From Haliclystus octoradiatus (Eukaryota; Cnidaria; Staurozoa; Stauromedusae; Haliclystidae), in NCBI GenBank assembly GCA_916610825.1, contig OU744451.1, positions 22,518,349 through 22,582,348 of the forward strand: a stretch of DNA of 64,000 nucleotides. The letters run 5' to 3'. Positions 1,205 through 58,100 of this stretch are shown here, piece by piece; the first letter of the stretch is position 1; each line of letters starts with the position of its first letter. Below the pieces are notes generated by a model. The model was not told where the DNA came from. It ran no database searches and worked only from the letters and a program-made list of their open reading frames with translations. A program made the position numbers and the translations under genes.

Positions 1205-1222
1205 TTTATTTAACAAAAGATA
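1205..1222 (+). promoter_or_regulatory. Primer-binding site, self-complementary to the LTR
   Basis: TTTATTTAACAAAAGATA lies one base after the 5' LTR, where a tRNA-complementary PBS is normally found. It has no tRNA-like TGG start. It matches the reverse complement of LTR positions 1148-1166 (TTTATTTAACAAAAAGATA): 14 matching bases, one extra A, then GATA. This fits the self-priming mechanism known for Tf1-like elements. Confidence 0.7.
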
Positions 1223-1240
1223 TTTTTCAGACAGTTAGTC

Positions 1241-4200
1241 ATGGATAGATTTCTTAAACCAGAAAAGTTCAATACAGATCCTAATTCATCTACTGCCAAA
1301 AAGGAATGGAAACATTGGCATATGACCTTCACAAATTTCTTGGCAATGCTGGACAAACTCAAACCAGATAAACTACACACTTTAATTAACTATATATCAC
1401 CTACTGTTTATGAATATATTTCTGACTGTGATACCTATGAACTTGCTATTACTACACTTGAATCAATGTATGCTAAGGTCCCCAATGAAGTCTATGCAAG
1501 GTATTTACTTTCATCACGTCGACAGCAGCCATCTGAATCTGTTGATACATTTTTACAAGCTCTAAGTCTATTGAGTAAGGATTGTACATTCAAGCCACTC
1601 ACAGCTATTGAACACAAGAATATTGTTATCAGAGATGCTTTTATTAGTGGTTTACAATCAAGTCCGATGCGGCAAAGGCTGTTAGAAAATAAGAATCTTG
1701 ATCTAGACACTACAATTTTACAGGCTAGATCTTTGGAAGTTGCGCAGAAAAGTTCTGATGGATTTGCAATCCCCCAGCAAACGAACACTGTTGCTGCTGC
1801 CACAGAGTTATCACATGCACAAATTGACTCACACAACTCTGAAGAAAATCATATTGCAGCCATCAAAAGTGACAAAACAGGCAAATGCTTCTTCTGTGGT
1901 CAACAGCGTCATCCACGTAGTCACTGTCCAGCCAAAGATGTCAACTGTAACAAATGCTCGAGGAAAGGACATTATGCAAAAGTGTGTAGATCAAGTAATA
2001 ACACATACAATAAAACACAATCTTCTGCAATGCACTCTACCTACCTAGCTGCAACAAAACCATGCCAATGTGTCGCTGACGTCAAAGTGAATGGTACTGC
2101 AGTGAAAGCTCTGATAGACACTGGTAGCAATGACAGCTACATTTGTCCTAATCTTGTTAAACAAATGGGATTATCTACCATGCCCAAGCCTTCTGTGGTA
2201 TATATGGCCTCATCTGCACTACATGCCAAAGTTGAAAAGTCAACAAAGATTGATATTAATATGGATGATAAAGTATACAAGAAAGTAGAAGTATCTATTT
2301 TACAAGGACTTTGCTCAGATTTAATCCTTGGTCGAGATTTTTTACAATTACACAAACAAGTCACTTTCGAATTTGGAGGTGAAAAACCTACCTTAAATGT
2401 TTGTGCTTTGGCATCATTGTCAATAAACCCTCCTAAACTATTTGCAAATTTAGACTCCACATGCCAACCTATCGCAACAAAATCCAGAAAGTTCAGTGCA
2501 CCAGACAAAAGTTTTATCGACACAGAAGTGCAACTACTTTTGAAAGAAGGTATAATTGAGCCAAGCACCTCACCATGGAGAGCGCAAGTATTGGTCACAA
2601 CAAATGAGCGTCACAAGAAACGTTTGGTTGTTGACTACTCGCGAACTATTAACCGCTTTACAAATCTTGATGCGTATCCATTACCTAGAATCGAAGAAGT
2701 AGTCAACAACGTTTCAAAGTACAAGTTCTTCAGTACTTTGGATTTGAAATCAGCATATCACCAAATCCCAATCAATCAAGAAGACAAGATATACACTGCT
2801 TTTGAAGCTGCAGGAGAGCTTTACCAATTCTGCCGAATACCTTTTGGTGTGACAAATGGAGTTGCCTGCTTTCAGAGAATCATAAATCAGATTATAAAAG
2901 ACAATGATTTAAAAGACACTTTTGCTTATTTAGATGATATCACCATATGCGGAAAAACCAAAGAAGAACATGATTCAAATCTTGATCGTTTCTTAGTAAT
3001 TGCTAAGAAACTAAACCTTACTATTAATCATGCAAAGAGTACATATGCTACAGAAACAATTAATTTATTGGGTTATTTGATATCTCATGGAGAATTGAAA
3101 CCAGATCCTGATAGGTTAACCCCGCTAAAAAGTCTGCGGCTGCCATCATCCACTGATGAATTGAAAAGAGCTGTCGGATTGTTTTCCTATTATTCACAAT
3201 GGATCAAGAACTTCTCAGATCTAATACGGCCTCTAACTCAAAGTCACTCTTTTCCACTATCTGACTGTGCCAAAGAGTCTTTTGAAACCTTGAAATCAAA
3301 AATCGAAGAAGCTGTACTTCAACCAATTGATGAAACAGCGCCATTTACTGTTGAAACCGATGCATCAGACTTTGCTCTCGGTGCAACACTCAATCAAAAC
3401 GGCAAACCAGTAGCATTCTTCTCTCGTACACTAACAGATGGTGAGCAGAAACATTCTTCTATTGAGAAAGAAGCATATGCCATTGTAGAGAGTCTTAGAA
3501 AATGGAGACATTACTTATGTGCCCGTAACTTTACACTAATCACAGACCAACAATCGGTCTCATTTATGCTGAACCCCAAACTTGCTGGAAAAATCAAGAA
3601 TGACAAGATTCAACGATGGAGAATTGAGCTATCATCATATAAATTCAGCATTATCTACAGACCAGGAACAGAGAATGCACCGGCTGATGCCTTATCTCGG
3701 ATACGAACTACTCTTGGAGCAACTCAAGCACATCAAAGCTTATACGATCTACATGACATGTTATGTCACCCTGGCATCACAAGAATGCTACATTTTGTCA
3801 GATCAAGGAATTTACCTTACTCCGTTGCTGATGTCAAAAATGTAACATCATCATGCACAGTGTGCAATGAGTGCAAGCCACAATACATGAAGCCACCTGA
3901 CGCCCATCTTATCAAGGCTACTCAACCTTTCGAAAGACTGAATCTGGATTTCAAAGGACCACTTCCTTCTTCATCTACTAACAAATATATACTAACAGTT
4001 ATTGATGAGTTTTCGAGATTTCCATTTGCCATTCCATGCCATGATGTATCGACGACTACTGTTACCAAATGTTTGCGACAAGTATTTGCTATGTTTGGTA
4101 TGCCAATGTATGTACACTCAGATAGAGGTTCATCATTTATGTCTAACGATTTGAAGGTATTTCTAAGAAGTCATGGTATTTCTGCTAGTCGCACTACACC

Positions 4201-4807
4201 CTACAACCCTCAAGGCAATGGACAGTGTGAAAAATATAATGGCATCATATGGAAAGCAGTTTCTCTTGCATTAAAATCGAGAAGTTTATCGACATCTCAA
4301 TGGGAAGTTGTACTACCTGACGCCCTCCATTCAATAAGATCTCTACTATGTACTTCAACAAATGTCACCCCTCATGAAAGGATGTTTAACCATAATCGTA
4401 GGTCAACTACTGGTAATGCTATGCCTACATGGCTTTCTTCTCCTGGACCGGTACTGATGAGAAACCAAAATATGCAGAGCAAATATGACACACCTGTCCA
4501 GACTGTCACACTCATTGAATCTAATCCTAACTATGCACACGTCAGGCTCCCTAATGGGAAAGAAGCTACCGTGTCAGTTAGACATCTGGCACCATATGGC
4601 GTAGAGTCAGAACAGCCACATCGTGAAGCACCTCTGGATGAAAATGTACCACTGGATTCAACTGGAGATTCAAATATTGATTCTATTCAAAATTTACCAA
4701 ACGTTGATCAACCAATTGTAGCTGAAAACACTGATGTGGTCAAAGATGTAAATGAACCACGTAGATCTACTAGAATTAGACATGCTCCCAATAAACTAAA
4801 CATCTAA
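1241..4807 (+). CDS. gag-pol: Gag-Pol polyprotein of Ty3/gypsy retrotransposon
   Basis: An intact 1,188-residue single frame. Residues 1-215 are a Gag-like region. Two CX2CX4HX4C zinc knuckles lie at 216-229 and 236-249. The aspartic protease has DTGS at 293. The reverse transcriptase has YLDD at 563-566. RNase H has its TDAS aspartate at 707. The integrase has an HPG-type zinc-binding N-terminus near 843, then the catalytic triad D903, D961 and E997 (D,D-35-E). A basic tail ends in RRSTRIRHAPNK. No frameshift separates gag from pol, so processing must rely on the protease. The start is the first ATG of the frame, 38 bases after the LTR. All catalytic motifs are present, so the protein could be functional. 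Confidence 0.96.
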   Translation: MDRFLKPEKFNTDPNSSTAKKEWKHWHMTFTNFLAMLDKLKPDKLHTLINYISPTVYEYISDCDTYELAITTLESMYAKVPNEVYARYLLSSRRQQPSESVDTFLQALSLLSKDCTFKPLTAIEHKNIVIRDAFISGLQSSPMRQRLLENKNLDLDTTILQARSLEVAQKSSDGFAIPQQTNTVAAATELSHAQIDSHNSEENHIAAIKSDKTGKCFFCGQQRHPRSHCPAKDVNCNKCSRKGHYAKVCRSSNNTYNKTQSSAMHSTYLAATKPCQCVADVKVNGTAVKALIDTGSNDSYICPNLVKQMGLSTMPKPSVVYMASSALHAKVEKSTKIDINMDDKVYKKVEVSILQGLCSDLILGRDFLQLHKQVTFEFGGEKPTLNVCALASLSINPPKLFANLDSTCQPIATKSRKFSAPDKSFIDTEVQLLLKEGIIEPSTSPWRAQVLVTTNERHKKRLVVDYSRTINRFTNLDAYPLPRIEEVVNNVSKYKFFSTLDLKSAYHQIPINQEDKIYTAFEAAGELYQFCRIPFGVTNGVACFQRIINQIIKDNDLKDTFAYLDDITICGKTKEEHDSNLDRFLVIAKKLNLTINHAKSTYATETINLLGYLISHGELKPDPDRLTPLKSLRLPSSTDELKRAVGLFSYYSQWIKNFSDLIRPLTQSHSFPLSDCAKESFETLKSKIEEAVLQPIDETAPFTVETDASDFALGATLNQNGKPVAFFSRTLTDGEQKHSSIEKEAYAIVESLRKWRHYLCARNFTLITDQQSVSFMLNPKLAGKIKNDKIQRWRIELSSYKFSIIYRPGTENAPADALSRIRTTLGATQAHQSLYDLHDMLCHPGITRMLHFVRSRNLPYSVADVKNVTSSCTVCNECKPQYMKPPDAHLIKATQPFERLNLDFKGPLPSSSTNKYILTVIDEFSRFPFAIPCHDVSTTTVTKCLRQVFAMFGMPMYVHSDRGSSFMSNDLKVFLRSHGISASRTTPYNPQGNGQCEKYNGIIWKAVSLALKSRSLSTSQWEVVLPDALHSIRSLLCTSTNVTPHERMFNHNRRSTTGNAMPTWLSSPGPVLMRNQNMQSKYDTPVQTVTLIESNPNYAHVRLPNGKEATVSVRHLAPYGVESEQPHREAPLDENVPLDSTGDSNIDSIQNLPNVDQPIVAENTDVVKDVNEPRRSTRIRHAPNKLNI

Positions 4808-13503: not shown

Positions 13504-29409
<15,906 letters not shown>

Positions 29410-37161: not shown

Positions 37162-40100
37162 CTGGAAGAACACAGAAGCAATCAAAAGTATTGACAAAAG
37201 CGTGTAAGTCAGGGTCTGGGTATGACAAAAGCGTGTAATTCAGGGTCTAGGGTATGAAAAAAGTGGGGATCCTCGGATCTAGATCCCGGAGGGCTAGAGA
37301 AAATTCAGAACAAAATTGATAATTTTCTGATTTATAAGCCAAACATTAACAAAAAATCAGGAGAAAATGTACAATATTTTTCAAGATATCAGAAGGCTAA
37401 ACCTTTCGTCAAACACTGCTTAGGGTTGGATAAAAGGGGTTATTTTGAGATTTAGACCCCTGCAATAAACAGTTCAGGAAAATTGAGGCTGTTTAACGTT
37501 CATGGCCTGTTCATGAACTCCTAAACTAATTTTCGCAGGGGGAGTCCTGGAAGGCTGGAACAAATTCAAAAGGGAATAGCTGTATTCAAACTTTTTTAAT
37601 CAGAAGCCAAATATTTTGCATTCTTTTCTTTTTAATGTAAGTGAAATATTGTAGATTTGATCAATTTGTATGATAATAAACCCCAAAGTAAAAGAATGTT
37701 CACATGATTTAATTAACAACAAATTTGGAAGCAAAGCAAATCATTCTATCGGACCCTTAGATGCATAAAATTGTCCATCACGCCATGTGGGCTGTAAGTT
37801 GGAAAGTGAATGCCATTATTCAAGCCACGAGTAGTGTACTAAACCAGTGCATATTCGAAGACCAAACGCAAAGGCCACCGGTCAATTTTATGCCTTTAAG
37901 AATGCTAAAAATTAATTAAAATGCTGTTTGATGACATTTATTGTTAGGTATGTAGAGTTTTGTATAAGATTTATTTATTACATTTTGACTCTACATGTTA
38001 ACAACGAAAGAGAGTCATTACACATTACAATGATTGTTTACATGTAGAGAAAAGAGTACTAAACACAGAAGTCACAATAAAAAAAAGAATAATAAATAAA
38101 TCACTACAGTTATATAATCAATTTAATGAGAGCTATCCTTTGAAATGTAACTGCCATAGTTCATAAAAGTAATGTAGACGGTGTCGCCCTACCAAAGGCA
38201 CCCGTACCACTTCCCTTTCTCTAGAGGAGTGGCTACTTTCGCTAAGAGCAATGATTTTAAACGATCTTTACCGATCTCAGCAGAGACACTGCAGGTCAAT
38301 TTCAACAGATTTCATGGCAGACAGGGTCTTGATTGTCAATGCGCAACGATGCGCCGCAGCTACTCACAATGCAATTCCCTCCGGACCATTTCATCTGCTA
38401 TCCTCAGATGGTACTCATTTGATGTGTTAGATAAAGTCAAGGCTGAGTTGACCTTCGATTCAGGGGATCTGAACCACACTTGATCAGAAATGATCTGGTC
38501 TGAAGTTAGGTTGCTCTGCCATCCTGAGCTAATCCTCTTTTCATGAACAGTTCATGAACGTTAAATGGTCCCAAATTTTAAGTAACTTTTCATGAAAATT
38601 GGGCACGATTGGCTATTACGTCGAAAAGTTTTATGTCGAAAAGTTTAACGTCGAAAATTTAACGTCGAAAAAAATAAACCGCAAAAATGGATGTTTAATG
38701 TCGAAAAGCGGTTTTATTGCCATTTTATTTTTCTGCGTTTTTTTTAATTGGGAATAAACCCCCAGACGATCTTTACATATGTAGTAGAACTCGACGTGAA
38801 AAAAACAATGGCGTAATTTTTTGGTGTTTTGACCATAGACATAATAGATAGATTATATCTATTATGTCTATGGTTTTGACCCAAATGTCGCTTAGGAAAA
38901 AAAAGGGATTGGATCTAGCTTTATGACGACAAAGTCACAAGTCGTGCGGTTTTTCTAATAGACTTTAGATCGAATTAATCACGTGATGTTGCGTTTGAGA
39001 TGGCGTAGCTCTGTAACGGCAATCTATTTTTCTCTCTCACAAAACTGCAGGTAAGGAAAAACATATAAACTCAAGAGTAGCAAAATTCCAGATGATTTAA
39101 TGATTTCGAAGTTTACGAATTTGAAGAAAATAAAAATCAGAAAATGTTTTATTCGTGTTGCACGTTATACAGATTATATTTTGACGTATCATTCTCACAC
39201 ATATTTAACACATATCAAAAGATTCTCTGGTGACCACAATAGCTAGATAAGTAGAATTTATTGTTGTAAGCATGAGTCTGAACTGATAATGGAGTATTCT
39301 TTTGAGGGTAAGAATCATAGCGTATGGCGGGAAACGCTATAAGAACACCATAACCGTTCATTTTATAGTCCTCTTTTCACAGAAACGAAATCTGCTCATC
39401 TGATTTATCGTCTCTGTAGAAAGGTATTTTGTGCAAAGTATAGCTTCTGCACTGTACATTACCACATCCTATAAACTACAGATTGTGATATGAATGATGC
39501 TAACATGTTCTACTTTCTAGCCAAAGGAATGAATACTAGACTGGTAATACAATTTGGTGGCGTATGTATAATCAGGAACGAGACTTCACATTGCAAAACC
39601 CTAATTTTGTTAATCAGATAACGTTGGTAGAGAGGATAACAATTTATGCAATGAAGATATACCGCAAAACCGAAAAATGATAGAATATGCATAACCGTAG
39701 TTCTGGTATACGGCTGTAAACTTGAATAAGAACGTCCAAGCCCTCATATCATTGTTGTACTATTTTCCGATATTTTATAGAATTTTAGAGTGTAATGTAC
39801 TGAAGAATTTTCAATCGTTTTATAATAATTGAATGCTTGGTGAATGAATGATGAACACTTTGTTAGACTATTGAGTATAATATATCTATCTACAGTCGTA
39901 TAAACTATACGATTACATGGTTAAAGAATTACTAGACAGACATCAATTTCAACTTAAACTTTGAAATGATAATTGAAAAATGTCTATTTAATAATTTAGT
40001 AATACTTAAAGAAATCCGAAAAAGTACAATTAATACTTTGCAATACCAACTATTTCGAAAGAAAAGTTGTCTGTGCATGCCTGTGCAAATCGAGTCAGTT

Positions 40101-43100
40101 TACATTCACATTTAGATCAAGAAAAGGATATCTTGTAGAAATATTTACTCAAGAACAAATTCCAGATAGAGTTAAAAATAGTTATAACTTATTTATATAG
40201 CGTAGGACAAAGCTATTTCGAAGGGCATGTGTCTAATTAAGATTTGAAGAAGTACTGCGGTCACACAGAATACGTAACTAATATGTATCACTAGACTAGT
40301 CACAAAGGAACACTCGCACCGCCTGACATTTGTGTTTATCCGCAATCTATATCAGATTCTTTGTAAAGGTTTACTTGACATGAATTTCATGATGGTATAT
40401 GCGATAAAAAACACAATAATTGGCGCAACAGTTTCGATTTAATCTAAAATCATCTTCAGGCAATGTAAAAAGATAGAGTTAAAAAGTTACATGAATATTT
40501 ATATAAAAATCTAATTGATTTGTCTATTGAATTTATCGGAACGGTATTATACTTTTTAACAATGGCAAACAATAATTAGAGGAGAGATATTTTAGCACAA
40601 GAACTAATTACGAATATACGATACAAACACGGTGAAATAACAGTTACAATCAAAAATAGTTTAACAGCGGCAAAATGCTCTTTGGTATTATTCTTCCATT
40701 TTCTGTATTTCTTCCGGTCGTTGTTTAATATATTGCCGACCTGAGTGGTCGACATGACAGCATCGCGCATGTCACACAAGATAACAACAGTTAGATTTAG
40801 CGTAACTATGAATATGGAATAGTAATAGTTTAGAACAAATTGACAAACAGAAAAACTAAGTACGGATATACTTTAAGACAGATACAATGAAATAATTATT
40901 ACAAGCAAAAACAAATAATCCAAAATCCATTTATCAATGGCAAAATGTTCTATCAGATTGATTACCAACTTTCTGTATTTCCTCTGGTCGTTGTTGAAAA
41001 AATTGCCGATTTGATTGGCCGACATGACAGCATCGCGCATGTCACACAAGACAATAGACTAATTAATTAGATTTTTATATAAATATTCATGTAACTTTTT
41101 AACTCTCTCTTTTTACATTGCCTGAAGATGATTTTAGATTAAATCGAAACTGTTGCTCCAATTATTGTGTTTTTTATCGCATATACCATCATATATATCA
41201 GATTCATCGCGCTTAATGACGCTACGAGAAATTATTTCGACTGAGCGTTGCAATAGATTTTATTCTGCTCCTGTAATCACAAATTGCATCTTTTTACATA
41301 ATTCGGGAGTGTATATGTTTGTTCATGACTCAGCCTTGTCAGAAATTATTGTTGTGTGACCTCTCGGAGCTAGGTCACCTCAAAGATAGCGTCGCGTAAT
41401 CAGCCCACTCTAAAGTCTGTTAGACAAACTGCACGACTTGTGACTTTGTCGTCATAAAGCTAGCCGATCCAATCCCTTTTTTTCTCAGCGACATTTGGGT
41501 CAAAACACCACTTTGAAGGCATTTTTCACCAAGAAATAATTTCCAGATCGAAAAAAAAATTACGCCACTGTTTTTTTCACGTCGGGTTCTACTACATATG
41601 TAAAGATAGTCTGGGGGTTTATTCCCACTTTAAAGATAGTGCCGTATAACAGATAATAAATGTTAGTAATTATTTCCATTCAAAATACCACGGTTTTTAA
41701 ATATGAAGAATATTGCCAGCGTGCACCTATCGCAGGGGCGTGCACTAAAAACTTTTTAAATATGAAGAATACTACCAGTCTAGTATTAAATTAAATATGA
41801 AGAATACTACCAGCGTGTTCCTGTAGGAGGGCGTGCACTTTAAACTTTTAATAAAATATGAAGTGTTTTACCGGCGTGCACCTATCGTAGGGGCGTGCAC
41901 TTGAATACTTTTCATTTCAAAGAGCTTTTTCATCAAGTTATTCATTTTTGACATTAAACTTATCGGGACACAACGCCAACGCGATACAACGCAACAGTAA
42001 CGCATGAATTTGATTCATTACAAACTCCTGCTAAATAGCTATAATTAAAACTACAGACGAAGGTGTATATATATGTTATCTTTGTTTGGTATCCAATACT
42101 ATTCATTTTAAAGGGGTTTTTCATCGAGTTATTCATTTTCGACATTAAACTTATCGGGACACGACTCAGTACCTGTATCTATATAGGTGAAAGTTTTATT
42201 CTTCGAATGATATATCGTTTTCTATTACATCCTAGAAATTATTTGACATACAACTAATCGATATCGAACGATTATTTAATATAGAACTATTTCATAAATA
42301 TTTAACAACCTCATGTAAGTTCTTTATTTTATTATCAATTTATATGAAATCAACAAGAGGCTGACAAGGTAAATATGACAACGAAGAGAATATATATATA
42401 AAGTAATTTTATTGTATTTAATTGTAATTAGAGGATATATGATATTGTATATACAGGATATACATGTTAACTTAATATAAATTGTTATTAATAGAAAATG
42501 AAAAGTATTGGACACTGTAGAAAGGTAACATATAGATACACCTTCTTATGTAGTTTTAACTATCAATTATAGTTATTTAAGTAGAGTTTGTAATGAATCA
42601 AATTCATGTGTTATTGTTAGTGATGAAAATCGCGTTATGTCCCGATAGGTTTAATGTCGAAAATGAATAACTTGATTAAAAAACCTTTTAAAATGAAAAG
42701 TATTGGACACTGTAGAAACGTAATATATAGATACACCTTCTTATGTAGTTTTAATTATCAATTATAGTTATTTAAGTATAGTTTGTAATGAATCAAATTC
42801 ATGTGTTATTGTTAGTGATGAGAATCGCGTTCTGCCCCGATTGGTTTAATGTCGAAAATGAATAACTTGATTAGAAAACCCTTTAAAATGAAAAGTATTG
42901 GACACTGTAAAAAGATACCATATAGATACACCTTCTTATGTAGTTTTAACTATCAATTATAGTTATTTAAGTAGAGTTTGTAATGAATCAAATTCATGTG
43001 TTATTGTTAGTGATGAAAATCGCGTTATGTGAAAATCGCGTTGTGTCCCGATAGGTTTAATGTCGAAAATGAATAACTTGATTAAAAAACCCTTTAAAAT

Positions 43101-46100
43101 GAAAAGTATCGGACACTGTAGAAAGGTAACATATAGATACACCTTCTTATGTAGTTTTAACTATCAATTATAGTTATTTAAGTATAGTTTGTAATGAATC
43201 AAATTCATGTGTTATTGTTAGTGATGAGAATCGCGTTCTGCCCCGATTGGTTTAATGTCGAAAATGAATAACTTGATTAAAAAACCCTTTAAAATGAAAA
43301 GTATTGGACACTGTAAAAAGATACCATATAGATACACCTTCTTATGTAGTTTTAACTATCAATTATAGTTATTTAAGTAGAGTTTGTAATGAATCAAATT
43401 CATGTGTTATTGTTAGTGATGAAAATCGCGTTATGTGAAAATCGCGTTGTGTCCCGATAGGTTTAATGTCGAAAATGAATAACTTGATTAAAAAACCCTT
43501 TAAAATGAAAAATATCGGACACTGTAGAAAGGTAACATATAGATACACCTTCTTATGTAGTTTTAACTATCAATTATAGTTATTTAAGTATAGTTTGTAA
43601 TGAATCAAATTCATGTGTTATTGTTAGTGATGAGAATCGCGTTCTGCCCCGACAGGTTTAATGTCGAAAATGAATAACTTGATTAAAAAACCCTTTAGAA
43701 TGAAAAGTATTGGACACTGTAGAAAGGTAACATATAGATACACCTTCTTATGTAGTTTTAACTATCAATTATAGTTATTTAAGTAGAGTTTGTAATGAAT
43801 CAAATTCATGTGTTATTTGTTAGTGATGAAAATCGCGTTATGTGAAAATCGCGTTGTGTCCCGATAGGTTTAATGTCGAAAATGAATAACTTGATTAAAA
43901 AACCCTTTAAAATGAAAAGTATTGGACACTGTAGAAAGGTAACATATAGATACACCTTCTTATGTAGTTTTAACTATCAATTATAGTTATTTAAGTATAG
44001 TTTGTAATGAATCAAATTCATGTGTTATTGTTAGTGATGAGAATCGCCTTCTGCCCCGACAGGTTTAATGTCGAAAATGAATAACTTGATTAAAAAACCC
44101 TTTAGAATGAAAAGTATTGGACACTGTAGAAAGGTAACATATAGATACACCTTCTTATGTAGTTTTAACTATCAATTATAGTTATTTAAGTATAGTTTGT
44201 AATGAATCAAATTCATGTGTTATTGTTAGTTATGAAAATCGCGTTGTGTCCCGATAGGTTTTATGTCGAAAATGAATAACTTGATTAAAAAACCCTTTAA
44301 AATGAAAAGTATCGGACACTGTAGAAAGGTAACATATAGATACACCTTCTTATGTAGTTTTAACTATCAATTACAGTTATTTAAGTATAGTTTGTAATGA
44401 ATCAAATTCATGTGTTATTGTTAGTGATGAAAATCGCGTTGTGTGAAAATCGCGTTGTGCCCCGATTGGTTTAATGTCGAAAATGAATAACTTGATTAAA
44501 AAACCCTTTAAAATGAAAAGTATTAGACACTGTAGAAACGTAACATATAGATACACCTTCTTATGTAGTTTTAACTATCAATTACAGTTATTTAAGTATA
44601 GTTTGTAATGAATCAAATTCATGTGTTATTGTTAGTGATGAAAATCGCGTTGTGTGAAAATCGCGTTGTGCCCCGATTGGTTTAATGTCGAAAATGAATA
44701 ACTTGATTAAAAAACCCTTTAAAATGAAAAGTATTAGACACTGTAGAAACTTAACATATAGATACACCTTCTTATGTAGTTTTAACTATCAATTATAGTT
44801 ATTTAAGTAGAGTTTGTAATGAATCAAATTCATGTGTTATTTGTTAGTGATGAAAATCGCGTTATGTGAAAATCGCGTTGTGTCCCGATAGGTTTAATGT
44901 CGAAAATGAATAACTTGATTAAAAAAACCCTTTAAAGTGAAAAGTATTGGACACTGTAGAAAGGTAACATATAGATACACCTTCTTATGTAGTTTTAACT
45001 ATTAATTATAGTTATTTAAGTATAGTTTGTCATGAATCAAATTCATGTGTTATTGTTAGTGATGAAAATCGCGTTATGTCCCGATAGGTTTAATGTCGAA
45101 AATGAATAACTTGATTAAAAAACCCTTTAAAATGAAAAGTATCGGACACTGTAGAAAGGTAACATATAGATACACCTTCTTATGTAGTTTTAACTATCAA
45201 TTATAGTTATTTAAGTATAGTTTGTAATGAATCAAATTCATGTGTTATTGTTAGTGATGAGAATCGCGTTCTGCCCCGATTGGTTTAATGTCGAAAATGA
45301 ATAACTTGATTAAAAAACCCTTTAAAATGAAAAGTATTGGACACTGTAAAAAGATACCATATAGATACACCTTCTTATGTAGTTTTAACTATCAATTATA
45401 GTTATTTAAGTAGAGTTTGTAATGAATCAAATTCATGTGTTATTGTTAGTGATGAAAATCGCGTTATGTGAAAATCGCGTTGTGTCCCGATAGGTTTAAT
45501 GTCGAAAATGAATAACTTGATTAAAAAACCCTTTAAAATGAAAAGTATCGGACACTGTAGAAAGGTAACATATAGATACACCTTCTTATGTAGTTTTAAC
45601 TATCAATTATAGTTATTTAAGTATAGTTTGTAATGAATCAAATTCATGTGTTATTGTTAGTGATGAGAATCGCATTCTGCCCCGACAGGTTTAATGTCGA
45701 AAATGAATAACTTGATTAAAAAACCCTTTAGAATGAAAAGTATTGGACACTGTAGAAAGGTAACATATAGATACACCTTCTTATGTAGTTTTAACTATCA
45801 ATTATAGTTATTTAAGTAGAGTTTGTAATGAATCAAATTCATGTGTTATTTGTTAGTGATGAAAATCGCGTTATGTGAAAATCGCGTTGTGTCCCGATAG
45901 GTTTAATGTCGAAAATGAATAACTTGATTAAAAAACCCTTTAAAATGAAAAGTATTGGACACTGTAGAAAGGTAACATATAGATACACCTTCTTATGTAG
46001 TTTTAACTATCAATTATAGTTATTTAAGTATAGTTTGTAATGAATCAAATTCATGTGTTATTGTTAGTGATGAGAATCGCCTTCTGCCCCGACAGGTTTA

Positions 46101-49100
46101 ATGTCGAAAATGAATAACTTGATTAAAAAACCCTTTAGAATGAAAAGTATTGGACACTGTAGAAAGGTAACATATAGATACACCTTCTTATGTAGTTTTA
46201 ACTATCAATTATAGTTATTTAAGTATAGTTTGTAATGAATCAAATTCATGTGTTATTGTTAGTGATGAAAATCGCGTTGTGTGAAAATCGCGTTGTGCCC
46301 CGATTGGTTTAATGTCGAAAATGAATAACTTGATTAAAAAACCCTTTAAAATGAAAAGTATTAGACACTGTAGAAACGTAACATATAGATACACCTTCTT
46401 ATGTAGTTTTAACTATCAATTATAGTTATTTAAGTATAGTTTGTAATGAATCAAATTCATGTGTTATTGTTAGTGATGAGAATCGCCTTCTGCCCCGACA
46501 GGTTTAATGTCGAAAATGAATAACTTGATTAAAAAACCCTTTAGAATGAAAAGTATTGGACACTGTAGAAAGGTAACATATAGATACACCTTCTTATGTA
46601 GTTTTAACTATCAATTATAGTTATTTAAGTATAGTTTGTAATGAATCAAATTCATGTGTTATTGTTAGTGATGAAAATCGCGTTGTGTGAAAATCGCGTT
46701 GTGCCCCGATTGGTTTAATGTCGAAAATGAATAACTTGATTAAAAAACCCTTTAAAATGAAAAGTATTAGACACTGTAGAAACGTAACATATAGATACAC
46801 CTTCTTATGTAGTTTTAACTATCAATTATAGTTATTTAAGTATAGTTTGTAATGAATCAAATTCATGTGTTATTGTTAGTGATGAAAATCGCGTTGTGTC
46901 CCGATAGGTTTAATGTCGAAAATGAATAACTTGATTAAAAAACCCTTTAAAATGAAAAGTATCGGACACTGTAGAAAGGTAACATATAGATACACCTTCT
47001 TATGTAGTTTTAACTATCAATTATAGTTATTTAAGTGTAGTTTGTAATGAATCAATTTCATGTGTTATTGTTAGTGATGAAAATCGCGTTGTGTCCCGAT
47101 AGGTTTAATGTCGAAAATGAATAACTTGATTAAAAAACCCATTAAAATGAAAAGTATTGGACACTGTAGAAAGGTAACATATAGATACACCTTCTTATGT
47201 AGTTTTAACTATCAATTATAGTTAGTTAAGTACAGTTTGTAATGAATCAAATTCATGTGTTATTGTTAGTGATGAGAATCGCGTTCTGCCCCGATTGGTT
47301 TAATGTCGAAAATGAATAACTTGATTAAAAAACCCTTTAAAATGAAAAGTATTGGACACTGTAGAAAGGTAACATATAGATACACCTTCTTATGTAGTTT
47401 TAACTATCAATTATAGTTATTTAAGTAGAGTTTGTAATGAATCAAATTCATGTGTTATTGTTAGTGATGAAAATCGCGTTATGTGAAAATCGCGTTGTGT
47501 CCCGATAGGTTTAATGTCGAAAATGAATAACTTGATTAAAAAACCCTTTAAAATGAAAAGTATCGGACACTGTAGAAACGTAACACATAGATACACCTTC
47601 TTATGTAGTTTTAACTATCAGTTTTAGTTATTTAAGTGTAGTTTGTAATGAATCAAATTCATGTGTTATTGTTAGTGATGAAAATCGCGTTGTGTCCCGA
47701 TAGGTTTAATGTCGAAAATGAATAACTTGATTAAAACACCCTTTAAAATGAAAAGTATACGGAATGTCGCGTTGTTACTTGATAAGTTTAATTTCGAAAA
47801 CTAAATTTGAGATTGATCAAAAGTTTCTTCGTGAAACATTTCAGAGTGAAAGATAGCAACAAAAAACTACAAATAGATTATTTATTATACCATCGTCAGT
47901 TCAAAATAATAAATATTAATTTACAAATTATTTATAGGCTATAATGGATTTATAGACTTAACACATTGCAATTGTTATAATACTGCTAGAAATTAAACAA
48001 TGAAAAAGGAAGGAACCTAGTCAATTACAAATGTGCTATATTTATGCAGTACTTTACAAAAGGAGTCGGGAACGGTAGAGTCACTCTGAGTGCATTGTGA
48101 GGTTTTTTATCAAGGATAATTAACATTTCATGTACTACACAGTCGAATTTATTGCTGCATTTTTCTCTACTGAAAATAAATGTTGTGATTCATCCATAGT
48201 TTTATTGTGTGAATGTAAATGTCTTCCGATAATATCTTCCGTGAATGTAAAATTGTAAATGTATTTAAACTGACGATGGTATAATGAATAATACCGAAAT
48301 TTTTTTAACATCACTTCTTGTAGTTTTTTGTTGCTATCATTCACTTTGAAATAAATTTAAGATGGAATTGTAATAAAATAATACACCCTCGTATTAGGTT
48401 AATACTATAAGTTATTAGATATATATTTTTTTTTTTGGGGGGGGGGGTTTAACACGGTAATTCCAGCCTCTGCAAAGAACAAAACTTGAAAATGCTCCTA
48501 AAAAGTTCCTAAAATCCAACAAAATACGGTAATTTTTTATTTTTCCAATTCAAAGTTGATTTCTCAAAACTCTCAACAAATTTGAAAAGGAGATTAAAAT
48601 CTGAAATTTGCAATCCAATTTTTCTCATCGTAATCGTTTATCGGGGTGAACAATTTAATCCATCGTTTTATCACGTAGTTCTTTGTTTCACTATTACGTT
48701 TGACCATGGTTTGACTATTTCTCAAAAATGTAGTGTATTTCCGCAGTATCCTTTTGCCACCGGGATTGTGTCTGTTTAACAGTGGGGAATCTGTCATAAC
48801 AAAGCGAACAAAGTTAGTGTACGTGTAAATAAGATAAATTCAAATGTAATATAGTTAAAAGTTTCAAGTGCACGCCCCTGCTATATAGGTGCACGTTGGT
48901 TTAATAGTCTTCATATTTAAATTAAAATTTTGATTGCACCACCATGCGATAGGTACACGCCAGTAATATCCATATGTAAAAAAGTTTTTTAAGTGCGCGC
49001 CCTGCTATATGTGCACGCCGGTACTCTTCTATATATTTAGTTTTATGTGCACGCCCTGCTATAGGTGCACGCCGGTAATAATCTTCATATTTAAATTCAA

Positions 49101-52100
49101 GTTTTAAGTGCACGCCCTGCTATAGGTGCACGCTGGTAATATTCTTTATATTTAGTTTGATGTGCACGCCGGTAACATTCTTCAGATTTAAATTTAAGTT
49201 TTAAGTGCACGCCCTCCTATAGGTGCACGCCGGTAATATTCTTTATATTTAGTTTTATGTGCACGCTGGTAACATTCTTCATATTTAAGTTCAACTTTTA
49301 AGTGCACACCCTGCTATAGGTGCACGCCGGTAATATTCTTTATATTTAGTTTTATGTGCACGCCCTGCTATAGGTGCACGCCGGTAATAATCTTCATATT
49401 TAAATTCAAGTTTTAAGTGCACACCCTGCTATAGGTGCACGCCGGTAATATTCTTTATATTTAGCTTCATGTGCACGCCCCTGCTATGTACACGCCGATA
49501 ATATTCGTATTTAAAAAAGTTTTTAAGTGCACGCCCTGCTATAGGTGCACGCCGGTACTATTCTTTATATTTAGACGATACGATAGGGTGCACGCCGGTA
49601 ATATTCTCCATATTTAAATTCAAGTTATAAGTGCACGCTCATACGATAAGTGCACTCCGGTAATATTCTTATTTAGTTTTATGTGCACGCCCCTACTATA
49701 AGTACACGCTGGTGATATTCTTCATATTTAAATTCAAGTTATAAGTGCACGCCCATACGATAGATGCACGCCGGTAATATTATTCATATTTAAAAAAAAT
49801 TAAGTGCACGCCCATGAGATAGGTGCACGCTCTTAACATTTGAAAAATTTTACGTCCACGCCTCTGTTTTAGGTGCACGCTGTCGATATTTTAGGTTTTC
49901 GTTTCGTGTAAAATTGCGGTAACTATTTTACGTCCGCGGCAAATCGTGCCGGCTCCTTCTTGTATCTACGTCATTTCGTGCAAAATTGCGGCGACAATTT
50001 TTGCCGCGCGCCAAAATCTCGTAGATGCACGTGGAAAACGTACATTTTGGGATTTATGTCGAAAATTTAACGTCGAAAAAATTTTTTCGACGTTAAACTT
50101 TTCGACGTTATAGCGTACAATCAAATTGGGGCCATTTAACGTTCATGATCTGTCGATGAACTGTTTTTCGCAGTATTCCAGACATGGTTTGCATTTTTTT
50201 TTTTTTATTTCTGATTTGCAGATTACATGTTAAAAACTTCACTGGTTGATGAATTTCAAGATTAGTTATTTTAACGAAAACACAGGTTATTTATTGCTAG
50301 TAGGATATATTGTTAGCTACACTTAATGGATATTATCAAAATTTTAAAGAATTGTGCCTACCTCCATAGTGTAGCTGTTATGGATACCAAGTCTCCACAT
50401 GACTACTCTTCCAGTGCCCTCCTATAAGAATAGACATCCAAGGTTGATTATTCAGAAGCTGTATTTCGAATCATGTCGGTATATTTGGGGTTGCTCATGA
50501 CCCTATATATATATATACTAGTGAAGTGAACCCGCTCCACTGGGTGAAATTTGAAAATATTAAAATAGAAAACTGAATTGCTAGAAGTTAGCCCAAATGA
50601 TAAATAAACAATAGAACTGAAGGTCAGTCGGGTGTGAAAGATATTGCGTGACGAACATGAGAATGTAATTCGTTCTTTCTATGGAGCCGCAAGAGAAATC
50701 CTACGAAAAAAATGCGTTTGAGCCGTCAATTGAAGGAATATAAAGATATGAACATAAAACATGGCATATGTTGCCGCAAAAATATTCTAAGATACCCCAC
50801 GGAAAATATGGATTTGATACGGTTACTATGAGAAGCGTGAATCTCGAATACAGTAGATACAAAAAGGCATACATCGACGTTTATATAGTAGATTTATCAG
50901 GTATGCAGGGTATCTAACAAGTAGGCATTCAATTGCTGCAACCAAAAACTAAAATTAAATTAAAAGGAATAAGCTTGAGAAAACTAAACATTAAGATTAA
51001 AAACTAAAGATAATTAAATGATACATTACATTAAATGAAATGAAAGTGTGATAAACTTTTTGACTGATGCTGTGATGGTTCAAGTTGAAAGTAGTCAAAG
51101 CAAAGATATTAGGAATGCCACAACATGATTTAAAAATAGTGAAATCAGCATTAGAAAAATTTTCAGGCAGAAAGTTCCATATTAGTAACATATAGTGAAA
51201 TGGTATGTTGATTGATGCTTGAGGCAGCAAAAAAAGAATGTCATATGTTACACTGTTTTTAAAGCGAGGACGTAAGCGAGGTTCAACCCCCTGCGAAAAC
51301 AGTTCAGGAGTTCATGAACAGTTCATGAACAGTTCATGAACAGTTCATGAAAGTTAAATGGCCCTAAATTTTCATGAACTGTTCATGAACTGTCTGTGAG
51401 GGTTTATGGGGTTTATGAACTGTTCATGACCAGTTCATGAACAGTTCAGGAAAATTGGAGCCATTTAACGTTCATGAACTGTTCATGAACTGTTCATGAA
51501 CTCCTGAACTGTTTTTCGCAGGGGACATCATGCAGTAACATTGGTGACATCAGGAGGGAGATAGGTCAGACCATTTATTGAATTATAAAAGTTGTAAACA
51601 TGATTTGAATTCCTTGGTGCAGCCGAACATCATGATACTAAGTGAGTTGTGATATTAACCGTAGTGAATAGCTGAGTTTGATAGAAACCGTTTTTTAAAA
51701 ATTAATTGTTGTCCGTATTGTTTCAGTGTGTGAAACCATGCTGAAACTTGAAATTTCAAGCCATACCAAAGCCATGATTGGCATTGATCGTTGAATTTAC
51801 GCTAAGCTTAATTTAAGTTGAGCTTGCACCGACAAACGGGCAGTGCTGCTCCAGCAGATTGTGATATTAACAGTAGTGATATTAACGGGGCTGCACTGTA
51901 TAGAAAAAAGGTGATATTTTTTAGATGGTAATTTGATGGGGTATTAATAACAATGATTGATAGATGAGATAATTCTGAAGTAGAATATAAAGTCGTCATA
52001 TGGTAAGGAAAACTCTGTGTAATGTGCATATGTATATGATCTATGGTAGTAACTGTTCCTGGATACCTGGTTAATAATAATACCTGGCTATTTATTCGTC

Positions 52101-55100
52101 ATACCTTATTCTTTTTCAGACTAAATCGACATGAACTGTATGAAAACTGAAATGAGAAATAAATAATTAACATTAAATGTTGAAACATCCCCTGCGAAAA
52201 CAGTTCAGGAGTTCATGAACTGTTCCTGAACTGTCTGTGAGTGTTCATGAACTGTTCATGAACAGTTCAAGAAAATCGGAGCCATTTAACGTTCATGAAC
52301 TGTTCATGAACAGTTCAAGAAAATCGGAGCCATTTAACGTTCATGAACTGTTCATGAACAGTTCAGGAAAATCGGAGCCATTTAACGTTCATGAACTGTT
52401 CATGAACAATTCAGGAAAATCGGAGCCATTTAACGTTCATAAACTGTTCATGAACAGTTCAAGAAAATCGGAGCCATTTAACGTTCATGAACTGTTCATG
52501 AACAGTTCAGGAAAATCGGAGCCATTTAACGTTCATGAACTGTTCATGAACAATTCAGGAAAATCGGAGCCATTTAACGTTCATAAACTGTTCATGAACA
52601 GTTCAAGAAAATCGGAGCCATTTAACGTTCATGAACTGTTCATGAACAGTTCAAGAAAATCGGAGCCATTTAACGTTCATGAACTGTTCATGAACAGTTC
52701 AAGAAAATCGGAGCCATTTAACGTTCATGAACTGTTCATGAACAGTTCAGGAAAATCGGAGCCATTTAACGTTCATGAACTGTTCATGAACAATTCAGGA
52801 AAATCGGAGCCATTTAACGTTCATGAACTGTTCATGAACAGTTCAGGAAAATCGGAGCCATTTAACGTTCATGAACTGTTCAAGAAAATCGGAGCCATTT
52901 AACGTTCATGAACTGTTCATGAACAGTTCAAGAAAATCGGAGCCATTTAACGTTCATGAACTTTTCGTGAACAGTTCAGGAAAATCGGAGCCATTTAACG
53001 TTCATGAACTGTTCATGAACAGTTTTGGAAAATCGGAGCCATTTAACGTTCATGAACTGTTCATGAACAGTTCAGGAAAATCGGAGCCATTTAACGTTCA
53101 TGAACTGTTCATGAACTGTTCATGAACTCCTGAACTTTTTTGCAGGGGATGTAGTGTCACATTATAAATTATTGTCACGTTTGTATGTAGTTTCAATGTG
53201 CAAATAGTTGAGATTTTCAGAGTTGGAAAACTCTTCTCAGAAATTGGAGGTAAAACCCAACTAATCAAAATCCAATTGGTATTCAAAAATGACACAAATA
53301 TCATTTTGAGATTGGCAGGATCAAGCTTAAGAATTCAACAGATTTTAAAGATATAAACTTTAGTCAATGCTTGACATTTAATGAAAGACAACTTTTGAAA
53401 CCTCTCTATGAAGAGCTAAAAGAAAAGTTTCAAACGCTGCCCCTATGATGATTGTTATAAAAGTAAACAAATGATTGATGTATCAAATTTGACCATTGTA
53501 AAATACCACTACAAAGAACATCAAAATCCAAATAATAGTAATCCATAACAAGGGTCGTAGGCAATGATATTTAAACTTTTATTATTTCAATGCACGATCA
53601 TAAATGAAAAAAATTGGTTTATTTTGATTATTTACTTTCGTCTAATCATTATGATGTCATCGCTATCACAGAGACATGTAATGTAATGTAAGACGCGTTA
53701 ATTGCCCAACGTCATTATCATGTACTTAGTAGAAAAGACATAAATAAATTGACTAGCAGGGGAAGAGTTGCACTTCTGATACGTAAAGATTTGAAATTAA
53801 GATCACTACGGACAAAAGGAAATTTATGGGAGCTTCTTCAGATCAAACAACCTACTAACCAAATGTTGTGGCTAAAGCTTCGGACCTATGGCCTGAAGGA
53901 TGTTGGGTTTAATTCCTGATAGAAGCATTATTGGTTGGCGTTAGGAAGTGCAGCCGGTCATAAAATGAAACAATCATTTCAAACCACTAATCAAGTAACT
54001 ATTTATCCCGGTGAAAAAAAGCTTAAAACGTACCCAACTTAAAACGACAATTACTCCCCTGCGAAAACAGTTCAGGAGTTCATGAACGTTAAATGGCTCC
54101 AATTTTCCTGAACTGTTCATGAACTATTCATGAACAGTTCATGAACCCTCACAGACAGTTCATGAACAGTTCATGAAAATTTGGGGCCATTTGAAAAAAA
54201 AATCTACGTTCCTAACTTAGTTAACAATTAATTTCAGTATCATAGTATGGCAGCCAACTTATTTTTTTATAAATAGGTTTAAAAATATCAAATTACCTTA
54301 TTTGGAGTATTTTTTGCCATCATAAATGGAAAAACCTTTTGTTGATTTGCTGAGTTAGATTTATCTCTAAAAAAAATTAGATAGAAACAATAATAAAAAC
54401 TCACACTATGATCTTAATCATATTTCGCATGTCTTAAATTGTTTTTGTGAGATCATCTCATCAATGTTAAAAGGACCCATTTTCAAGAACAATTTGTTAA
54501 CAATTAATTTTTAAACATTTCCCCTGCGAAAACAGTTCAGGAGTTCATGAACAGTTCATGAACGTTAAATGGCCCCAAATTTTCAAGAACTTTTCATGAA
54601 CTGCCTGTGAGGGTCCACGAACTGCTCATGAACAATCCATGAACAGTTCAGGAAAATTGGAGCCATTTAACGTTCATGAACTGTTCATGAACTCCTGAAC
54701 TGTTTTTCGCAGGGGTTCATGAGAAGTTTATGAACTTCTAAAGAAGTATTCATGAACAGTTCAAATAATAGGTCATGCTAAATCAAATTACTAACATGAT
54801 TGTCCCAGCGACAGAGATTGTAATTTAACAAAACAAATTTGATGGTAATTGTGCTAGTATCGTGAAGCTAGAAATTATGAAGTGCATAGGCACTAAAAGG
54901 TTTCACTTAACAGTAATTTTTATTTCAATCATATTTTGAATGTAGCCCCTCGTAACCAAAATCTCCTACGAAGTTCATGAACGTTCAATAGGGGATAATT
55001 AACACATATGATGCCGTATCTGTATATATACGGGCTGGCAATGTGGTTTTTCCATCAGGGCTAAAAAACAATGGGACGTCTTTAGCAAAAACTTTTGTTC

Positions 55101-58100
55101 GATCTAGCCAATAGGATATCAGCTATTCAGGGAATCTTCTTTCCCACGATTCTATCGTGATCATACGATAGTATCTGAGTTTTAATTTTTCGACCAAATA
55201 CAAAATGGCGAGGTTTGGACAAGCTGTCGGTCGGGTGCTAATAAAACCAATAAAATGGACTGTTATAATTATACAGTACAAACATAATGAATATTTGGTA
55301 ATACAATTATATGATCACAAACTATTTTTTGTGGCTTTTGCCGGGTTTTATAGAACATCATTTCCTACATGACAACTATTAGGAAAGGAAATGATGGAAA
55401 GTAAATTATGCTCCTGTTTTCTGTTTGACATACCAAAGCTTGATTGACTGACGTATCGTCTTAAAACGGCAGGTGAGCTTGTACTATGGAATGAATTTTG
55501 TATAACTTACAAGTAAATATAAAGTTTATATAAAATGACGGTTTTTCACACCAAGGAAGGTAAATTAAACAATCCTTGCTTGGATTGAAAATCGTCATTC
55601 AAATTAGAAGGAACTATTGGCATAAATGTCTTTCGTGTAGCAACAAAATAGGTTGAAATAAGTTGAAATAAACTAATCTAAAATCTGGCGGCATCATAGT
55701 GGTAAAGTTCATGAACTGCATATCGAAAAAGAGAAAGAAATTGCTTACTTGTTTTCACATCCATAAATAAAAACATTTTGTCTTCTACTGTGACCATGTA
55801 AGTCACAGTAAAGTAGAACTTCTCGTTCTTGTTGTAGCCTGAAACAAAGCATAGAATAAATAACTTCCAAGGCACATTCCAAATTTATGTTTCCAAGAGA
55901 AACACAGTTCAGGAGTTATATCAGTTACATCATTTAAGAATACCTTTTGATCAATGCCCTAGCATGATAAGCTGGCGGGAAAGCATCTTTCAATATTGTC
56001 TTGTAATTTCGATTTAAATCTCTACCAGCTAACGAACAACGATAATTACCAACAACAACCCCATCTGGATTAATCATTGGAAGTAATTTGAACACAAAAC
56101 ATTTTCTAAGGATCTGAAAATAATAAGAGAATTGATACATTAAATGTTAAATGCCGTAGTATTGCAGTAATTTAAATTTGACTACAAGGGTATTTTATTG
56201 GTGCAATATATCACCTAAGCACACCTGCAAAACATTTATTTGAGTTTATGAAGAATTCATGAACTATGTTGTAGAGGCAGTCAATTATTTAGATATGTCG
56301 GTTAATTCAGCGATTATCACATCACAAGGTACCTCCCCTGCGAAAAACAGTTCAGGAGTTCATGAACATTTCATGAACAGTTCATGAACGTTGAATGGCT
56401 CCAATTTTCATGAACAAATCATGAACCCTCACAGACAGTTCATGAACCCTCACAGACAGTTCATGAACAGTTCATGAACAGTTCATGAAAATTAGGGGCC
56501 ATTTAATGTTCATAAACTGTTCATGAACTGTTCAAGAACTCCTGAACTATTTTGGCAGGGGCTCCTACTGATCTATTTATTTTCAGAGTTGATCTAAATT
56601 GCTACCTTTGCATCAGCGTGATTGCTTGTTAAGAAATCGATCAAACCCTTCATCATCCAACTTGAAACAGTTTCCCCAGGATGTACTCTTGCAGTCACAA
56701 CAACAACTCGCTTGTTCTGAAAAGTAATATTAAGCAAATATTAAACACTTTCTGTGCAATATGGTCTCTGTGAAAAACAGTTCAGGAGTTCATGAACAGT
56801 TTGTGAACAGTCTGTGGATGTTCATCAACAGTTTATGAACATCCTGTGAATGTTCATGAACAGTTCATGAAAATTGGGGCCATTTAGCGTTCCTGAAGTG
56901 TTTATAAACTCCTGAACTGTTTTTCCCAGGGGAACACTGCCCTTTAACATAAATGATTTGTAAGATGTCCAATTGTCCATGAATAGTTCATGATCTCATT
57001 ACCTTTTGTATGGGGCTGAAATTACATGAGCCTGATCTTCTTTTTTCAATTTGTTATAATGTATGATGGGACGCCTACTATGACACCTAGGTATCAAACA
57101 CCTACTACTGTACATTATTTTTTGTCTACGGTTAGCTGGGATTACCGGGATTTGTTTGCTTATCTCAAATATAAACCTTCCTCTGTATCAAGTTCTACTC
57201 AAATCTACTCAATTCAACAATATGGAAATATAAGGCTCCATGGGGCTAAGCACCACCATAAAATTGCCTGGTTAGCTCAGCGGTAGAGCATCTGACTTTT
57301 AATCAGAGGGTCGTGGGTTCGATCCCCTCATCGGGCTAAATTTTTAACGAAAAATATGGACAAATATAAATTAAAATTAAAAAAATGAATACATAATTAC
57401 AATGATAATCATTTTGCTGTCATTTGCTGATTTTAATTGTCTTCTCCAGAAGCAGCTCATAAGTACTCAATTAAACAATATGGACATGTGTATTACGAGT
57501 TAAATATAGTATGTTTCGATTTTGCTATTAGGCTCCATGGGGCTAAACACCACTATAACATCGCCTGGTTAGCTCAGCGGTAGAGCATCTGACTTTTAAT
57601 CAGAGGTTCGTGGGTTCGATCCCCTCATCGGGCTGAATTTTTAACAAAAGGTATTGGCAATTTTAAAGTAATATTAAAAAGTCAATAGTAATAACCATTT
57701 TTACATGTAATCTTTTTATCCTGTTGTATTTTATGTTAATGAGCTCCATGCAAATAAGCATTGTATTGGTTCTTGGGTTTTCAATAAAGTTGCTTATGAT
57801 AAAGTTCTTCGATTAAGGTATTATGAAAAATTGAGCACTGCTCCTGCAAAAAACAGTTCAGGAGCTCATGAACAGTTCATGAAAGTTAAATGGCCCCAAC
57901 ATTCCTGAGCTGTTCATGAACTGTTTATGAAAATTAGGGCCATTAAACGTTAATGAATTGTTCATAAACTGTTCATGAATTCTTGGACTGCTTTTGCAGG
58001 GGTACATGAATCATCTGAAATTAACCAGTTTAAAATTAATTCATTGTCAGTCCATTGACATTTCAATCAATAGTTCATGGATATTAGATAAAAATCAGGC

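Follow-up and report, generated by a model that had tools for sequence, protein, structure and literature searches.

Tandemly repetitive inverted ends are known from the FB elements of Drosophila and the TU elements of sea urchins. A related architecture is present in the staurozoan Haliclystus octoradiatus, at positions 38604–50122 of a 64,000-nucleotide window (contig OU744451.1 of assembly GCA_916610825.1, positions 22,518,349 to 22,582,348), the whole stretch of DNA analyzed here. The element found at this locus is a real, well-defined, recently mobile, and apparently non-autonomous transposon of the foldback type. Its main interest is that a long satellite array does not keep a copy from behaving as a transposon.

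The described systems that it most resembles are Tetris, Tm1, and Rehavkus, with Tetris closest in kind. Tetris, a foldback transposon of Drosophila virilis, contains tandem repeats of ∼220 bp in layered inverted ends, has no apparent coding capacity and no autonomous copy found, and is flanked by duplications of 8–10 bp (PMC4079207). The number of repeat units varies, with arrays of up to 66 copies; a stretch is common to the unit and the outer domain of the ends, and a short relative, DAIBAM, is described (PMC4079207). The authors of that study suggested a possible disruption of transposition by the larger arrays (PMC4079207). Rehavkus-1_TC of Tribolium is a 9.5-kb DNA transposon in which the inverted termini hold the 164-bp satellite TCsat23, mostly as 5 and 8 units, and Rehavkus elements are characterized by 9-bp duplications and a PHD-finger transposase (PMC10218199, PMC6446971). 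Tm1 of Meloidogyne is a foldback family of the Phantom/Mutator type with 9-bp duplications and one member that encodes a putative transposase (PMC3169594).

The Haliclystus element shares with Tetris the satellite-size repeats in foldback ends, the stretch common to unit and end, the varying number of units, short forms, duplications of similar size, and the absence of any apparent coding capacity; no autonomous copy has been found in either. Compared by description, it differs from Tetris in having two kinds of array together with 15-bp terminal units, in outer octamers that do not match, and in a 12-kb copy with 24 units present at two unrelated sites. With Rehavkus-1_TC it shares a satellite within the inverted termini; in contrast to the 9 bp of Rehavkus, 25 of 28 target-site duplications are perfect 8-mers, a size that does not place the element in that group, and no transposase is seen. 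The likeness to Tm1 consists of tandem units (∼14 bp in Tm1) in foldback ends, unmatched motifs (7 bp in Tm1) outside the inverted repeat, and members similar to miniature inverted-repeat transposable elements (MITEs), whereas Tm1 has 9-bp duplications and a putative transposase, and no kilobase-scale satellite is described in the accessible text (PMC3169594). Galileo of Drosophila is similar in its foldback-like ends, in which tandem repeats provide further transposase sites, but has a known P-superfamily transposase, while none is linked to the present element (PMC3688188). A sequence-only reading of the window had not recognized the combination of foldback ends and satellite core, but it is not without precedent, given the satellite-size repeats published in the inverted termini of Tetris and Rehavkus-1_TC. 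A literature search by titles and abstract openings, in which a species-specific report could be missed, found none naming an element of this description. The dispersal of satellites, and whether long arrays halt transposon movement, are questions raised in the study of Tetris (PMC4079207). Both are testable here in one genome, in which copies as short as 239 bp and as long as 30.9 kb bear target duplications.

The boundaries of the element rest on comparison with other copies, which its ends match base for base. It comprises 11,519 bp (38604–50122, forward strand), flanked by a perfect 8-bp target-site duplication, AAATTGGG, at 38596–38603 and 50123–50130. The sequence-only reading had treated the region as a single element, which is borne out by the recurrence of both ends at identical bases elsewhere in the genome; its end at 50122 was correct, its start at 38605 lay one base too far in, and its near-perfect 9-bp flanking repeat is instead the perfect 8-bp duplication. 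In this copy, the outermost 8 bp are unlike between the two ends, a feature missed in the sequence-only reading: as read from the sequence, the left octamer CACGATTG (38604–38611, +) has no mirror at the right end, where GTACAATC is found (50115–50122, +; GATTGTAC inward). Next to the left octamer lies a sub-terminal repeat that starts with GCTATTACG and continues as ∼15-bp GTCGAAAA units (38612–38745, +; Tandem Repeats Finder (TRF), 38618–38671). Its right counterpart (50040–50114, −) holds GTCGAAAA units in both orientations, which form a long hairpin; the DNA fold of the right terminus, 50040–50122, is strong (−21.2 kcal/mol, z −5.7), while the left terminus has no strong hairpin (z 0.7).

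Further inward, the left side consists of a GTGCACG array of five motifs (41697–41912, −) and a satellite remnant of ∼1 unit (41905–42165, −). A spacer (42166–42494), found too in copies C7_7986 and C11_7605, separates this remnant from the main satellite array, in which TRF detects 26 units, mostly of 195 or 211 bp (42495–47758, +); the longer form of the unit holds a 16-bp duplication, visible as period-16 rows of TRF. A right spacer without a convincing coding match (47759–48856) and the right GTGCACG array (48857–49900, +) complete the interior. The left and right arrays match well in inverted orientation only, both for GTGCACG (minus strand E 3.7e-51, plus strand 0.32) and for the satellite (minus strand E 1.1e-66, plus strand 6.4). 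The three kinds of repeat are present in the mirrored order and opposite orientation that had been proposed from the letters, and the right side is expanded and the left short, as also proposed (26 satellite units versus ∼1). Counted on both strands of the window, GTCGAAAA has 36 occurrences inside the element and two outside, GTGCACG 30 inside and three outside, and TTTAATGTCGAAAA 27 inside and none outside. The proposal that the element interrupts a repeat of the F1 MITE family is sustained as well, as the window holds many uninterrupted stretches of F1 sequence that resemble the right flank and the joined flanks. Palindromic F1 repeats with GTTCATGAAC are present at many places; among them, at 52243–53126, a 48-bp unit is repeated 18.6 times in tandem.

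The evidence for mobility is derived from a search of the 262-Mb assembly of the species (33 contigs, with the window at C7:22518349-22582348). Allowing up to two mismatches, the first 20 bases from 38604 are found at 43 places and the last 20 bases at 45 places, while reversed-pattern controls for both probes gave no place in the genome. Longer probes detected 45 left and 48 right ends, which resolve into 31 pairs and 31 lone ends. The pairs are concordant in orientation, span 239 bp to 30,934 bp, and are dispersed over many contigs. Seventeen copies, including that of the window, were read end to end, 13 more pairs were read in their flanks alone, and seven single-ended loci were read in part; the 31st pair, C4:14762672, lies outside the duplication count. 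Among the 30 pairs so read, 25 have a perfect 8-bp duplication, two a perfect 9-bp duplication, one an 8-bp duplication with a mismatch, and two none. The duplications of the 28 positive pairs nearly all differ in sequence. A genome search for the ends, suggested in the sequence-only reading, thus upholds the single-element view in those of its refuting conditions that were examined, with shared end bases and an 8–9 bp duplication at 28 of the 30 pairs read, one of these with a mismatch. Copies as short as 239 and 432 bp also bear target duplications, which suggests that little more than the ends is required to move, unless these copies shrank after insertion.

The leftmost 142 bp (38604–38745) are identical at 13 places in the genome, including the window, and other left ends differ from it at 2 of 142 (C8_7453), 3 of 127 (C8_3998), and 1 of 142 positions (C4_8479). 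At the right end, differences from the window number 7 of 67 (C1_32244), 2 of 82 (C1_23821), and 0 of 82 in C4_7209, a copy that differs at 28 of 1200 positions further in. These counts, from copies that are not independent, give a hint that the ends may be kept better than the interior.

The satellite travels inside the element, as indicated by a near-identical pair of copies in unlike surroundings. C4_7209 spans 12,151 bp at C4:7211740-7223890 and C2_2223 12,153 bp at C2:2224786-2236938; the two are 99.87% identical, with eight mismatches and four gaps, and contain 24 satellite units each. They are located on different contigs (C4 and C2) with different perfect duplications, and their 1-kb flanks have no match to each other at E 0.001. 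A long-array copy has thus moved whole, and quite recently. The two halves of the element differ in their fate. Of the 17 fully read copies, eight have the left inverted GTGCACG array, always with five motifs (one mismatch allowed), and nine lack it; a copy flanked by duplications can therefore do without it. The right-half satellite varies from 0 to 58 units per fully read copy. Growth is confined to the right half; on the left, the array is reduced to a short remnant or gone. In the 58-unit copy, C1_8110, from which 56 units were cut out, mean similarity between units has peaks at spacings of 25 and 39 units (0.987 and 0.986, against a median of 0.969 across offsets), as expected under duplication or exchange of units in blocks. 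The 30.9-kb copy, at C1:31654418-31685351, is flanked by a perfect 8-bp duplication and consists of satellite at 16 of 20 sampled points, all consecutive; from these samples, its array would measure at least 22.6 kb if unbroken, or ∼115 units. For randomly sampled pairs of units, similarity is about the same whether the two come from different copies (0.965, 360 pairs) or from a single copy (0.967, 660 pairs). The satellite search scored the best 23 of 94 candidates, and C1_8110, for example, is absent among the matches listed, so that free satellite may exist beside them; of the loci grouped from these matches, 21 of 23 lie between paired ends and two inside a lone left end. A 15-bp stretch of the satellite consensus is an exact match to the left end; a relationship between unit and terminal repeat had been noticed in the sequence-only reading.

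About a quarter of the region had been mistaken for the element's own sequence and is a separate, nested terminal inverted repeat (TIR) element with a TTAA target site (38750–41629, +). This insertion bears inverted ends of its own; its right TTAA lies at 41630–41633, and within it is an inverted pair (40389–41192) with 141-bp arms at 40389–40529 and 41052–41192. Five copies (C7_7986, C1_30889, C4_5834, C10_17393, and C11_7605) display the empty site around a single TTAA, and three filled copies (C4_23380, C8_3998, and C1_8110) have TTAA on both sides. The left TTAA was lost through a small deletion in the window copy and in C2_6422 and is mutated in C8_7453. The right end of the nested element was not found in the other filled copies. 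Ends of this family with TTAA occur 1105 times in the genome with up to two mismatches (552 forward and 553 reverse); among the 100 of them listed, inverted pairs with a spacing of ∼2 kb are frequent. The nested segment belongs to an abundant, independent TTAA-site family that landed in the element. With the segment removed in thought, the order would read end units, GTGCACG, satellite, spacer, satellite, spacer, GTGCACG, end units. Other copies were invaded in a similar manner: among the long copies considered as possible carriers of genes, C11_2274 contains an insertion starting with CACTA in its GTGCACG array (L018 from about 391), and C8_1326 a TIR insertion with TGTCTGTGAAG inverted ends inside the satellite (L027/L028). 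C1_8110 owes its length mainly to satellite. In the short copy C7_7986, the middle is replaced and includes a putative fragment resembling the GIY-YIG domain of a Penelope-like element. Comparison of copies that hold the nested TTAA element with copies that lack it reveals how an element of this kind is assembled in layers.

No coding capacity is seen in the window copy, in which the longest stop-to-stop frame has 98 amino acids; a scan of 10 of its 47 listed frames gave only Prok-JAB at E 0.099, below the cut-off. No protein-coding gene was found in this copy, in which the sequence-only reading had seen no transposase. A 183-amino-acid frame (shorter in some) in eight fetched copies, the window copy not among them, has the look of a fragment of a reverse transcriptase of the type without long terminal repeats and matches no Pfam family; it was rejected as a candidate. 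With unequal inverted ends of tandem repeats, fixed ends, and duplications in 28 of 30 pairs, the element is very probably a non-autonomous DNA transposon of the foldback type. Helitrons leave no target duplication, which sets them apart from the 8–9 bp duplications of the 28 pairs. Membership in any superfamily is unproven, and the element is filed as a foldback-type TIR transposon without superfamily assignment.

The proposed mechanism is as follows. A transposase encoded elsewhere would recognize the terminal repeats and cut and paste whatever sits between both ends, leaving the interior free to change. The right array lengthens and shortens, which would occur at least in part via exchange of multi-unit blocks, and the left inverted half has stayed short or been lost. 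Other transposons have landed in the element and travel along. The most likely driver, favored on balance by analogy, would be a Mutator-like (MULE) transposase; the leaning is based on the tandem-unit inverted ends, the unmatched outer octamers, and the 8–9 bp duplications, all reminiscent of Tm1. The duplications also fall within the 8–11 bp given for MULEs (PMC6446971).

Several observations weigh against parts of this account. The usual 8-bp duplication suits the P and hAT superfamilies no worse than MULEs. The sequence-only reading had proposed a search for a transposase-bearing relative, and matches to MULE, P, hAT, and KDZ transposases were set against the ends: none of 85 MULE, 128 P-type, 150 listed hAT, and 34 KDZ places is inside any of the 31 pairs, so that no such transposase is found in a member with the same ends. 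These counts cover all 85 MULE matches, 128 of 135 P rows, 34 of 42 KDZ rows, and 150 of 150 listed hAT matches; the dropped KDZ and P rows are second fragments beside a retained row, and the searches scored the best 150 of 335 hAT candidates and the best 150 of 155 P candidates. A genome search for the FLYWCH finger that characterizes Phantom MULEs yielded no match, with its controls silent too. Of the two pairs that lack a duplication, C4_18045 has a core, with satellite, inverted relative to its ends between two 783-bp inverted repeats that are 100% identical; C4_7209 holds this repeat once, at the matching position. The other is C1_10521 (C1:10521526-10538948), with ends 17.4 kb apart; it may be a hybrid or rearranged copy. 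Finally, the end-like motif of the satellite ranks only 58th of 182 windows for conservation and is not the best-kept part of the unit, so that transposase binding to the satellite is without support from constraint. A self-spreading satellite factory, in which array growth would be compatible with transposition, the units would help to recruit the transposase, and insertions would seed the satellite and expand in place to tens of kb, is regarded as improbable.

Five transposase matches are located within 20 kb inside three lone ends: C8:307923 (a partial right end, 85%) has one KDZ and one P match, C11:7611789 a P fragment together with a stop-containing MULE fragment, and C1:12104877 one hAT match. 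At the latter two loci, 6 kb inside the end were read, short of those matches. The five are candidates only and are not treated as the partner of the element.

A serious rival, second to the MULE, is a P-superfamily transposase acting on the same architecture as in Galileo; its probability is well below that of the MULE, though far from negligible. It would account for the perfect 8-bp form of 25 of the 28 duplications, and P-type RNase H matches number 135 in the genome, some of them having open frames of 458–822 amino acids. In Galileo, foldback-like ends carry extra transposase sites in their tandem repeats (PMC3688188). The absence of all 128 P-type places from the pairs argues in the other direction, as do the two perfect 9-mers among the duplications and the outermost octamers, which are not inverted. 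The duplications of hAT elements are 8 bp. That size, together with the presence of both hAT and KDZ types in the genome, makes movement by one of these transposases conceivable, yet the two 9-bp duplications, the unmirrored outermost bases, and the position of every listed match outside the pairs render it a rather unlikely explanation.

Two further alternatives dispense with transposition of the array or of the element. If a pre-existing satellite locus had been bracketed by inverted repeats, with ends and arrays independent of each other, the widely varying array length and the copies without arrays would be accounted for; this is disfavored and highly improbable, given that 21 of the 23 listed satellite loci are enclosed by paired ends, with the remaining two inside a lone left end, and that an entire copy of 12 kb is found again in unrelated surroundings. 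Spread via segmental duplication or ectopic recombination could draw on the two pairs without target duplication and on the core inversion of C4_18045 between identical inverted 783-bp repeats. It is refuted for most read copies by the 8–9 bp duplications of 28 of 30 pairs, nearly all different in sequence, and by the unlike flanks of the near-identical pair, and of all the explanations considered it is the least credible. Transposition as a non-autonomous foldback-type element, with a MULE as the favored driver, remains the preferred interpretation.

The rest of the window contains several unrelated features. A 1197-amino-acid stop-free frame (1214–4807, +) encodes protease, reverse transcriptase, RNase H, and integrase domains of a retrotransposon. 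A 310-amino-acid frame without a Pfam match lies at 23479–24411 (−), and a (TAA)156 microsatellite with 100% matches at 22692–23159. Two tRNA-Lys (TTT) genes are located ∼300 bp apart at 57266–57337 and 57563–57634.

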